Notes under the pieces: model-generated | The model's database searches: none | What the model was told of the DNA's origin: nothing | Seen by the model: the letters and a program-made list of their open reading frames with translations, nothing else | Shown: positions 4,795-32,324 of the stretch, piece after piece | Position numbering within the stretch: the stretch's first letter is position 1 | How the letters are laid out: each line of letters begins with the position of its first letter | Made by a program: the position numbers and the translations under genes | Assembly (NCBI GenBank): GCA_001784725.1 | Contig: MFRX01000001.1 | Location: forward strand, 16,701 to 49,119 | Direction of reading: 5' to 3' | DNA length: 32,419 bases | Source: Candidatus Moranbacteria bacterium RIFCSPHIGHO2_02_FULL_40_12b | GTDB lineage: Bacteria; Patescibacteriota; Minisyncoccia; Moranbacterales; 2-12-FULL-40-10

Positions 4795-5787
4795 ATGTTT
4801 GGAATGAAAAATAATAAAAATGAAGAAAAGGCCGATATGTTTATTTCAGGAAACCAAGAAACGGTGAAGGATGATAATATAGCCGTGGGATCGATGCGTG
4901 ACGATCTTAATTCAAATTCTTCGGACGCGGAGCCGGCAAGTTATTCTAAAATAAAAAGCTTCGCCAAGAATGAGGGGGTTTCGCCGTGGCCAAATAATAA
5001 TAAGGATGATTCGAAAACAGAAGCAGAAAGCGGGAACGATAAGCCCAGCGCCCAAAAATCGAAATGGTACAGAATATTGGTTATAACCGTGGTTATATTG
5101 ACTATAATGACCTTTATGGCAGGCGGATATTATTACTGGATTACCCGTAAAGGGACAGAACAAGTCGAAACTGTTGTCAATTCCCAGGGAGAAAAGCCGC
5201 AAATTGAAATTACGGAAAAGAAATTTTCCGACGAGAATCCAAATATTCTCGCGGTGGATACTGAAACCATTAAGACCGCCGACTTACAGCAATTGCTGAT
5301 TCAAAAATCCAATGAAGTAAAAGAAGACGGACATGATAAGCCGGTTGAATTTATCGTAAACGATTTGAATAACAATCCTATTGCTTTTTCCAGGTTTGCC
5401 ATTATTTCCGGAATAAAAATTTCCACCAGCGTCCTGGATAATCTGGAAGAAAAGTTTTCACTGTATTTCTATAATGACGGAGGAAATATGAGGACGGGCA
5501 TCGTAATTAGTTTGAAAAACAAGGATAATGCCGTCCAGGAAATGAAGGATGAAGAAATTATTTTGGCCGATGATCTTATCCCATTATTTCTCGGAAACGA
5601 AGTTATGAAGGAAGGAGTAATATTTAAAGACGGAAATTATAATAATTCCCAAATACGTTACGCAAATTTAAATCCAGAAGGGACTGTTTCTTTGGACTAT
5701 AGCTTTGTGGGCATGAAGCTTGTAATCGGAACCAGTAAAAATACTACGCGGGCTGTTATTGATAAAATATCAAAAGAAAGCAATTAA
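4795..5787 (+). CDS. Hypothetical single-pass membrane protein
   Basis: 330 aa; TM segment 'YRILVITVVILTIMTFMAGGYYYWI'. Confidence 0.65.
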   Translation: MFGMKNNKNEEKADMFISGNQETVKDDNIAVGSMRDDLNSNSSDAEPASYSKIKSFAKNEGVSPWPNNNKDDSKTEAESGNDKPSAQKSKWYRILVITVVILTIMTFMAGGYYYWITRKGTEQVETVVNSQGEKPQIEITEKKFSDENPNILAVDTETIKTADLQQLLIQKSNEVKEDGHDKPVEFIVNDLNNNPIAFSRFAIISGIKISTSVLDNLEEKFSLYFYNDGGNMRTGIVISLKNKDNAVQEMKDEEIILADDLIPLFLGNEVMKEGVIFKDGNYNNSQIRYANLNPEGTVSLDYSFVGMKLVIGTSKNTTRAVIDKISKESN

Positions 5788-5950: not shown

Positions 5951-5979
5951 TTGACGCTTGACTAAATTTTTGCTATAAT
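5951..5979 (+). promoter_or_regulatory. Strong promoter TTGACG-N17-TATAAT
   Basis: Consensus boxes with 17-bp spacing, not followed by an ORF. Confidence 0.65.
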
Positions 5980-5984
5980 AGGGT

Positions 5985-6524
5985 TAGAATTTAATGAAAT
6001 TATTAGAATTTTTGTCCATTAAAAACCAATAAATTAATGGTAGAAGTACTTTCAACCACAATTTCCCCCTATTTGTGGTTGAAAATTCTTCTACTATTCA
6101 AGCATTAAGATCCACGTATCTTAATCGCCTCTGATTCTGACCAGAGGACCCTAAAACAAAAACAAAAATACTTTTAAAATAAAAATAAAAATAAAAGTAT
6201 AAAGTTCTTTGATACAAAGGTCTAGCGCCAGAGAACAGTAGAAGGAAGACATTGAAAGTCAGATAAAATGTCAAGCGCATGTATACAAAATACATGTTTA
6301 CATAGTGTATTATGACGCCTCTCACCCGGGCTAAATAAACCGTGTTTACATGTTGATACATGACAAACATCGGGCGAATGCGTCAAAAATTTATTTTTAT
6401 GGGCGTTCATTCGCCCGATTTCATATTTTAGCAGATACTAGTTAATAAAAGATTGTTAATTGGCACCTGTTAAGGTAAAAGTAAGAGCCGCTTTTTAGAA
6501 AATGGACAAATAAGTCCATTTTTT
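5985..6524 (+). ncRNA. Candidate large structured non-coding RNA
   Basis: Strong promoter, many successive hairpins (see findings), no plausible ORF, ends at hairpin AAAATGGAC/GTCCATTTT followed by T's. Confidence 0.45.
6499..6524 (+). terminator. Rho-independent terminator-like hairpin
   Basis: AAAATGGAC-AAATAA-GTCCATTTTTT. Confidence 0.65.
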
Positions 6525-6564: not shown

Positions 6565-7128
6565 ATGTCTATAGAAATTCCGATTAAAGAAAAACTCCCC
6601 GATTATGAAGAAAATTTTGGCCATGTTGCCGAAGTTATAATCAGGGATTCGATCAGAGAAAAAGCCGTACTATTTGTTGAAAAAGTGGAAAAAGGAACAA
6701 AACCGGAAGATTATCGGATGAAAGTGGATTTTTGGATTAAATTTGTCGGAATTGAGGAGCCATTAGGAATCCAATATACCGTGAGTAGCAATGAAGATAA
6801 AATCCAGGAAAAACTGGATTTTCTGAGATCGCGTAATTTTTTGGCCAAAAAAGAGAAAAGGCCTGACGCTGAAATCAACTGGTCGGGGAACGCCAATGTC
6901 GTGCTGGTGCGCGGGAATAAATTAAAAATGGGAAAAATAGACCGAGAGAGTCGCGAGAAGAATGTCAGCCCTTCAAAATTAATCGGCGAGGAATTTATCC
7001 TGAATTTCTTCAACCAGGTTATGATTATGATGGACGAAGCCAACCCTTTCAGGAAAAAAATTATTTATGAAACAATGCGAGCTATTTACCAAGAAACTTC
7101 GGGCAAGAGTAAAAATAAAAAGGATTGA
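6565..7128 (+). CDS. Hypothetical protein (187 aa)
   Basis: Long ORF, charged soluble protein; no family recognised. Confidence 0.6.
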   Translation: MSIEIPIKEKLPDYEENFGHVAEVIIRDSIREKAVLFVEKVEKGTKPEDYRMKVDFWIKFVGIEEPLGIQYTVSSNEDKIQEKLDFLRSRNFLAKKEKRPDAEINWSGNANVVLVRGNKLKMGKIDRESREKNVSPSKLIGEEFILNFFNQVMIMMDEANPFRKKIIYETMRAIYQETSGKSKNKKD

Positions 7129-29822: not shown

Positions 29823-29905
29823 GGGCATGTGGCGGAATTTGGTATACGCGTATGCTTGAGGTGCATATGCCGCAAGGATTGGAGGTTCGAGTCCTCTCAT
29901 GCCCA
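29823..29905 (+). tRNA. tRNA-Leu (GAG)
   Basis: GGGCATG/CATGCCC acceptor, anticodon arm TATGC-TTGAGGT-GCATA. Confidence 0.92.
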
Positions 29906-29911
29906 CTTTTT

Positions 29912-29962
29912 GGATGATTAGCTCAGTTGGCTAGAATATCTCTCTTTTGCTTCAGAAAGGAT
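29912..29962 (+). pseudogene. tRNA 5'-half remnant
   Basis: GGATGATTAGCTCAGTTGGCTAGAATATCTCTCTTTTG... truncated around the anticodon arm. Confidence 0.55.
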
Positions 29963-29965
29963 TTT

Positions 29966-30039
29966 GGGTCTGTAGCTCAGTTGGCTAGAGCGCTTCTCTT
30001 ACAAAGAAGAAGTCACTGGTTCGAGTCCAGTCAGACCCA
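29966..30039 (+). tRNA. tRNA-Val (TAC)
   Basis: GGGTCTG/CAGACCC, anticodon arm CTTCT-CTTACAA-AGAAG. Confidence 0.94.
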
Positions 30040-30043
30040 CATT

Positions 30044-30115
30044 GCCGCGGTAGCTCAGTGGTAGAGCGAAGGACTGAAAATCCTTGCGTTGGCAGTTCGA
30101 TTCTGCCCTGCGGCA
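30044..30115 (+). tRNA. tRNA-Phe (GAA)
   Basis: GCCGCGG/CTGCGGC, anticodon arm AAGGA-CTGAAAA-TCCTT. Confidence 0.94.
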
Positions 30116-30187
30116 CATAACTAGAATCATGAATTACGAAGTATGAATTATGCATGATTCTTTATTTGTTTTTTATAATTTATATTT

Positions 30188-30259
30188 GGGACTGTAGCTC
30201 AGTGGTAGAGCGAGCGGCTCATAACCGCCTGGTCGTAGGTCCGATCCCTACCAGTCCCA
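30188..30259 (+). tRNA. tRNA-Met-type (CAT)
   Basis: GGGACTG/CAGTCCC, anticodon arm AGCGG-CTCATAA-CCGCC; could be elongator Met or Ile2. Confidence 0.9.
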
Positions 30260-30269
30260 TATAGATTTA

Positions 30270-30340
30270 GCGGGCATAGTATAGTGGTAATACACGTCCT
30301 TGCCAAGGATGAGCCGGCAGTTCGATTCTGCTTGCCCGCT
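30270..30340 (+). tRNA. tRNA-Gly (GCC)
   Basis: GCGGGCA/TGCCCGC, anticodon loop TTGCCAA. Confidence 0.93.
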
Positions 30341-30424
30341 CAAGAATTTTAGAATATTTTACCTTGACATAAATAAACTTGCCAGTATAATATAACTACA
30401 GAAAGATAATTTTTAATATATCAT

Positions 30425-32096: not shown

Positions 32097-32169
32097 GGTC
32101 GTGTGGCGAAGTAGCTAACGCGGCGGTCTGCAAAACCGCTATTCGTGGGTGCAAATCTCACCGCGACCT
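32097..32169 (+). tRNA. tRNA-Cys (GCA)
   Basis: GGTCGTG/CGCGACC, anticodon arm GCGGT-CTGCAAA-ACCGC, discriminator T. Confidence 0.92.
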
Positions 32170-32183
32170 CAAATAAATATCAA

Positions 32184-32268
32184 GCCCGGGTGGTGGAATC
32201 GGTAGACACAAGGGACTTAAAATCCCTCGGATGAATAATCCGTGCGAGTTCGAGTCTCGCCTCGGGCA
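32184..32268 (+). tRNA. tRNA-Leu (TAA)
   Basis: GCCCGGG/CTCGGGC, anticodon arm AGGGA-CTTAAAA-TCCCT, long variable arm. Confidence 0.94.
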
Positions 32269-32324
32269 CTAGAGTTTGTTTTTTAATTTAATAGCCGGGT
32301 TCCCGGAAGAGGAAGTGTACTGAA

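Follow-up and report, generated by a model that had tools for sequence, protein, structure and literature searches.

In the window (the whole 32,419-nucleotide stretch of Candidatus Moranbacteria DNA that was analysed), the 777-bp gap between the gene u1 (4795-5787) and the gene at 6565 holds a promoter and a terminator hairpin, and very likely constitutes the site of a free-standing gene for a structured non-coding RNA of about 540 nt (5951-6524), although no transcript data are at hand. The promoter (5951-5979, forward strand), TTGACG-N17-TATAAT with a TG extended -10, is a conserved, near-consensus promoter of the sigma70 type; the same promoter with a spacer of exactly 17 nt stands 5' of the RNA in 54 of 67 homologous loci and is conserved in the alignment too. 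The inferred transcript (5986-6524, forward strand) would start at about +1, 7 nt past the -10 element, and end at an intrinsic terminator made of a hairpin and a U-run (6499-6524, same strand). In other species the alignment places a different terminator at the equivalent position, where GCACC..GGGTGTTTTTT or a similar sequence is found. A 545-nt RNA from the locus folds at -153 kcal/mol against -97.6 for shuffled sequences (z = -9.8, with none of 100 shuffles folding as well), and no conserved open reading frame was detected, the longest ATG frame within the RNA having a median of 29 codons across loci. Since the downstream genes differ and the terminator precedes the next gene, the RNA was read as an independent gene. 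A sequence-only reading made earlier had proposed a structured RNA of about 540 nt without a credible reading frame, with this promoter and a terminator-like hairpin at 6499-6524. All of this held: the promoter is in the sequence and conserved in homologous loci, the hairpin is present, and the fold z-score, the covariation described below and the absence of a conserved frame support the RNA itself.

The gene directly 5' of the RNA was u1 in all 65 loci with enough sequence. On the forward strand of the window it encodes a protein with one transmembrane helix, an N-terminal motif of the IHTMxxDL type and an outer domain that resembles DcrB/PsbP. It belongs to no Pfam family, and its alignment with relatives (A2) shows the short conserved IHTMxxDL motif, a disordered stretch, the transmembrane helix and the outer domain. 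An AlphaFold2 model likewise has a single transmembrane helix, and a Foldseek search with the outer domain gave DcrB as the best PDB match (E = 0.007, probability 0.84). The usual gene order is pnp, u1, RNA, yraN and a dksA-like (dksA/traR-like) gene, while the window has yebC, u1, RNA, an unknown gene and gmk. In spite of its constant adjacency, u1 was rejected as the dedicated protein partner of the RNA, for it occurs throughout the class without it. As u1 follows pnp class-wide, and usually no RNA is recognised behind it outside the Moranbacterales, the adjacency may reflect history and not function. Elsewhere in the window, ARAGORN placed a dense tRNA cluster at 29823-30341 (Leu, Val, Phe, Met, Gly) and 32097-32269 (Cys, Leu).

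The secondary structure rests on covariation in an alignment of 69 sequences, in which column pairs were scored by a G-test with APC against 20 tree-simulated alignments that kept each column's own number of changes. The 24 best-scoring pairs were all helical and Watson-Crick, and 9 of them were never reached in the 20 nulls; in the named structure 86% of cells were paired, compared with 76% after shuffling and 35-44% after sliding. Helices were also assessed by a swap test, in which RNAduplex was run with the partners exchanged between species. All features lie on the forward strand. P1 (6038-6096) has a lower stem formed by strands A (6038-6046) and B (6088-6096), an upper stem (6050-6061/6073-6084), covarying pairs in its stem, and an 11-nt loop, UUUCCCCCUAU (6062-6072), that is conserved while the stem covaries. 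The long-range helix P2 (6088-6244) joins B (6088-6099) to strand C (6233-6244) and closes the core; its column pair 176:314 is 100% Watson-Crick and covarying. Within the core lie P3 (6104-6111/6118-6125), with all 8 pairs changed on both sides, P4 (6128-6133/6142-6147), P5 (6168-6176/6192-6200; swap z = -12.0), whose loop is A-rich, and P6 (6219-6229), a covarying GGY...GCC hairpin (swap z = -8.2). Beyond the core follow P7 (6248-6253/6267-6272; stem swap z = -15.4), the covarying P8 (6278-6362), composed of 6278-6284/6356-6362 and 6292-6297/6348-6353 (swap z = -11.9 and -13.0) and bearing a conserved AAAAT bulge and the apical sequence UCACCCGGGCUA (6322-6333), and P9 (6369-6419), a GC-rich hairpin of 6369-6380/6408-6419 with an inner part 6381-6384/6402-6405 (swap z = -19.9). 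The A-rich tract AAAACAAAAACAAAAA (6153-6168) has a pyrimidine every 6 nt and, in the 69 sequences, A at 94-100% in all columns other than the two pyrimidine ones. The P5 loop holds a second A-rich tract with the same 6-nt spacing of pyrimidines, and both are conserved across the order. Such tracts fit ARN repeats, and a role as an Hfq platform was considered and rejected, as Hfq was not found in any of 23 genomes.

The loops of P4 and P7 interact in a kissing contact, as shown by sequence evidence: strands 6136-6141 (UCUGAC) and 6258-6263 (GUCAGA) covary (swap z = -7.4), and UUCUGAC:GUCAGAA has been rewritten as UCUGGC:GCCAGA, UCUUAGC:GCUAAGA, CUGAG:CUCAG, CUAACA:UGUUAG and UUCCC:GGGAA. Sequences of the L041 type lack P4 and P7 together. 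Covariation cannot separate an intramolecular from an intermolecular pairing here. The contact is judged on the 69-sequence covariation alignment and the swap tests instead of alignment A3, where the PK and P7 columns are misaligned in insert-bearing clades, so that kissing-loop counts from A3 are too low. The contact is a clean case of one that has been rewritten several times.

Besides forming the 3' arm of P1, strand B is complementary to strand C, so that the lower part of P1 and P2 are mutually exclusive, both using B. Both A and C covary with B: swap z was -16.7 for A:B and -15.5 for B:C (-13.4 for the inner B:C alone), against -1.3 for the A:C control, and columns 172-174 can pair with A in 97-100% of cells and with C in 96-100%. 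Constrained folds of 66 species put the two states on a near par, with a mean difference of 0.7 +/- 3.8 kcal/mol and B:C lower in 32, though these energies leave out Mg2+, the kissing loop and proteins. All three strands are retained in the oddest variants, for example L041, and also L216, which has lost the apex of P1. The exchange of A and C on strand B is therefore likely to be functional, and the fold is read as one meant to exchange, an inference from sequence. It remains possible that a three-way junction forms instead, with inner A:B and outer B:C pairs present together. Under the preferred reading of an exchange, the local hairpin P1 (A:B) would form first during transcription, an order that is inferred, and strand C would later invade, pair with B and close a multiloop holding P3 to P6 and an unpaired GUUCUUU. 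As an example of conserved strand exchange the RNA is unusually clear-cut: two different partners each covary with the one strand.

That GUUCUUU (6204-6210, forward strand), a near-invariant boxA-like element, stands just 5' of P6 and strand C. Of 69 homologues, 56 match GYTCTTT. Another 12, with C in position 5 and, in six of them, A in position 3 as well, read GUUCCUU or GUACCUU and are poor boxA sites; the one remaining, L025, is incomplete. Pairing of GTTCTTT with AAAGG or AGAGAAY, the two candidate partners, was rejected for want of covariation, and for this reason the element is probably unpaired. Pairing of the 5' leader with GTTCTTT or strand B, the only two targets tried for it, was likewise rejected, as neither covaried with the leader. 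Most stems of the sequence-only reading were borne out by covariation or swap tests, namely 6041-6093 (P1), 6104-6125 (P3), 6168-6200 (P5), 6369-6419 (P9), GACATT/AATGTC, which is P7, and both CATG stems, which are the two stacked parts of P8. Its stem at 6128-6147 (P4) held in part, being CCTCTG/CAGAGG with 6 bp and not 7, while CCATTA/TAATGG (6016-6040) found no support, as it occurs in the window sequence only and competes with the conserved P1. That reading had missed P2, P6, the kissing loop, the strand exchange and GTTCTTT.

In a covariance-model scan, no Rfam 15 family was matched at the gathering score by the RNA of the window or by 11 homologues, and the same held for 11 more sources, which carry short elements or elements from other classes. 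With E-values up to 5 allowed, the window RNA matched only spurious microRNA models and one snoRNA. The scan of the window RNA and its homologues showed no sequence or Rfam relation to OLE, ROOL or GOLLD. No description of the Moranbacterales RNA was found in a search limited to open-access papers, and by the measure of Rfam 15 and that literature the earlier claim that it is undescribed stands; an Rfam match, or a lack of conservation and covariation, would have refuted the claim, and both were checked and neither was observed. At the RNA locus, RF00023 and ARAGORN were negative for tmRNA, while a tmRNA gene over the cut-off lies elsewhere in 19 of 23 Moranbacterales genomes and an RNase P RNA gene (RF00010) lies elsewhere in all 23, in the window's own genome at G000:C25:5182-5542. 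Because both are encoded elsewhere in the same genomes, the RNA is neither, in agreement with the earlier failure to see a tmRNA T-arm or an RNase P core. Four genomes have no tmRNA over the cut-off, G000 (the window's own), G007, G017 and G022; assembly gaps or divergent tmRNAs are possible. The SRP RNA models RF00169 and RF01854 were not matched at the RNA locus, and genome-wide RF00169 matched 0 of 23 Moranbacterales and 0 of 114 genomes of the class, and RF01854 0 of 114 of the class, while the SRP models did detect the control genomes. SRP RNA in the Paceibacteria is thus either very divergent or missing. A tie between the RNA and SRP RNA loss was rejected: the models fail equally across the rest of the class, leaving no specific link.

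By BLASTN, 73 of 97 genomes from the window's order have the RNA. R1, a covariance model of its 5' domain, detected it in 37 of the 39 genomes sampled from the Moranbacterales, an order of the class Paceibacteria in the Patescibacteria, and in none of about 348 genomes from the rest of the class. Of the two that it missed, G003 carries the RNA after all, with the apex of P1 lost. The absence from those 348 or so genomes had first suggested an order-only distribution, which was dropped after R1 matched four genomes of other classes in a phylum-wide sample. Three of those four loci (L151-L153) have a CCCCC-loop hairpin beside a dksA-like gene; L151 and L152 keep strands A, B and C when read by eye, and the hairpin stem of L153 is wholly different. 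The exact P1-loop pattern occurred in 65 records of a genome collection. Most of these bear the title Candidatus Moranbacteria or Moraniibacteriota, and the remainder are mostly unlabelled Patescibacteria or uncultured bacteria; the pattern had no match in viral contigs, plasmids or phages. As most loci were gathered by this exact pattern, the "100%" conservation of the loop is inflated. Two loci with other labels, L090 (Saccharibacteria) and L094 (Micavibrio), carry the Moranbacterales RNA with u1 and probably come from mislabelled or contaminated bins. All told, this is almost certainly a real family of structured non-coding RNA, new to Rfam and near-universal in the sampled Moranbacterales. 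Patescibacteria genomes are very small, yet some 500 bp are kept for the RNA in nearly every sampled Moranbacterales genome, and such retention suggests an important function. Even without a known function, it is a new family suited to Rfam and to structure work.

Several other Paceibacteria have shorter elements near pnp-u1, with a promoter, a B strand, one or more hairpins, GYTCTTT, a hairpin and a C strand; several have a clear promoter or terminator, some having a terminator as well as this layout, and three lie directly between u1 and the dksA-like or next gene. Oriented along u1, they are L142 2700-2950, L147 (reverse strand) 2650-2850 and L150 2670-2925, where GYTCTTT lies in a hairpin multiloop with a long-range closing helix, and, with the same layout, L155 850-1200, L156 1055-1400, L157 1110-1460 and L194 480-760. 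Read by eye, L150 has the words CUGUUC in its B strand and AGAAUGG in its C strand, just as the Moranbacterales do. The R1 model did not detect the short elements, and their homology to the Moranbacterales RNA is no more than possible, resting on layout and neighbourhood with no statistical match or common alignment. The shared B/GYTCTTT/C layout and the words of L150 suggest, without proving it, an older core, with P1 and its C-loop, the A-rich tract, the kissing loop, P8 and P9 as later gains of the Moranbacterales.

What the core might do is suggested by GUUCUUU. The gamma-proteobacterial boxA consensus is GYTCTTTAANA, in a study which states that non-coding RNAs were left out of consideration (PMC5725501), and GTTCTTTGATA of the window agrees with it at 10 of 11 positions. 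BoxA is the antitermination site of NusB-S10. The element lies mid-transcript, unlike the 5'-end place of boxA in rRNA leaders, and the stretches of G010 examined for an rRNA-leader boxA, a partial coverage of that genome, contained no rRNA gene. As a boxA, GUUCUUU would bind NusB-S10, and the RNA would act in trans as a stable RNP, either through Nus-aided folding or as a buffer of free NusB-S10. In the absence of NusB-S10 binding data, a boxA/Nus role is a lead, with the balance against it. The full account, which combines the non-coding RNA gene, the strand exchange and a boxA RNP, is as apt to be right as wrong, its function being inferred without transcript data. A bolder version, a mere possibility, holds that a free-standing, trans-acting boxA RNA exists throughout the Patescibacteria, with the multiloop presenting boxA to NusB-S10. 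The exchange of A, B and C would then open or close the boxA core, linking free S10 to transcription antitermination, and the Moranbacterales version would be one enlarged by a kissing loop and an additional C-loop hairpin. No other free-standing boxA RNA of this kind is known to us; should the boxA reading prove true, we know of no earlier stand-alone RNA built around an antitermination docking site.

The most serious rival, and a possible one, is an ornate scaffold, in which the RNA would assemble into a homo-oligomer or be coated by protein into a particle, in the manner of OLE, ROOL or GOLLD; the kissing loop or B:C would then be intermolecular and GUUCUUU a tertiary contact and not a boxA. 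The size, many helices, kissing loop, A-rich linker and unknown function all fit ornate RNAs, and covarying loop pairs in ROOL and GOLLD proved to be intermolecular (PMC12286853), a distinction on which covariation here is silent. Against it stand the lack of a match to those RNAs and the presence of GYTCTTT in the short Paceibacteria elements, which lack most of the ornate parts. An antisense regulator, whose P1 loop would pair with G-rich, Shine-Dalgarno-like mRNA sites, is unlikely. In its favour are the strict conservation of the loop above a covarying stem (inflated by the pattern-based sampling) and the retention of CCCCC in other classes despite a changed stem; there are other sRNAs whose C-rich loops target Shine-Dalgarno sites. 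However, within the window's genome the 10-nt complement TAGGGGGAAA is confined to the RNA gene, no second conserved site of it was found in 23 genomes and thus no exact target of the loop is conserved, none of the 23 genomes has a detectable Hfq, and the relative L216 lacks the loop while keeping the rest. An apparent depletion of TAGGGGGAAA relative to its reversed control is uninterpretable because TAG is a stop codon. Less credible still is a cis leader, in which a riboswitch or attenuator would control the downstream gene and the A/B/C exchange would serve as the expression switch: mutually exclusive helices are typical of attenuators, and the next genes are usually yraN and then the dksA/traR-like gene, with a dksA-like gene in three other-class matches, but the downstream gene in the window is different and the terminator hairpin involves none of the strands A, B and C, so that neither a constant downstream gene family nor the absence of an own terminator, as a leader would require, is met. 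Finally, a divergent housekeeping RNA (tmRNA, RNase P, SRP or 6S) overlooked by standard models is all but excluded, for although no SRP RNA model matches anywhere in the class, tmRNA and RNase P RNA have their own genes, the SRP models fail as much in relatives without the RNA, no SRP domain IV motif was seen, and covariance-model scans of the RNA loci gave no 6S match (the genomes were not scanned for 6S).

Among known systems, OLE, ROOL and GOLLD resemble the Moranbacterales RNA in being large and free-standing, with many helices, loop-loop contacts, A-rich or variable linkers and an unclear function. OLE has membrane-protein partners, which may be set beside the adjacent membrane-protein gene u1. 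The Moranbacterales RNA differs from all three in its host lineage, in the strand exchange on B, in its boxA-like core and in having no matches in phage or plasmid collections. The raiA-motif RNA (ModT), for which refolding in vivo has been reported (PMC11706538), is likewise lineage-wide, stand-alone and structured, but its sequence and fold are different and its hosts are Bacillota and Actinomycetota. The boxA/nut elements of rRNA leaders are likewise untranslated and have, flanked by hairpins, an unpaired GYUCUUU in a region closed by a long-range helix, for which the rRNA leader-trailer helix is the comparison (PMC10250234). The present RNA, in contrast, has no rRNA following it, carries its boxA-like element in the middle and has its own promoter and terminator, and 12 of its 69 homologues deviate at U3 and/or U5, with one more incomplete. 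The boxA of mRNA leaders is a further likeness, as it too lies outside rRNA operons (PMC5725501), although the Moranbacterales RNA is a separate non-coding RNA and not the leader of an mRNA.
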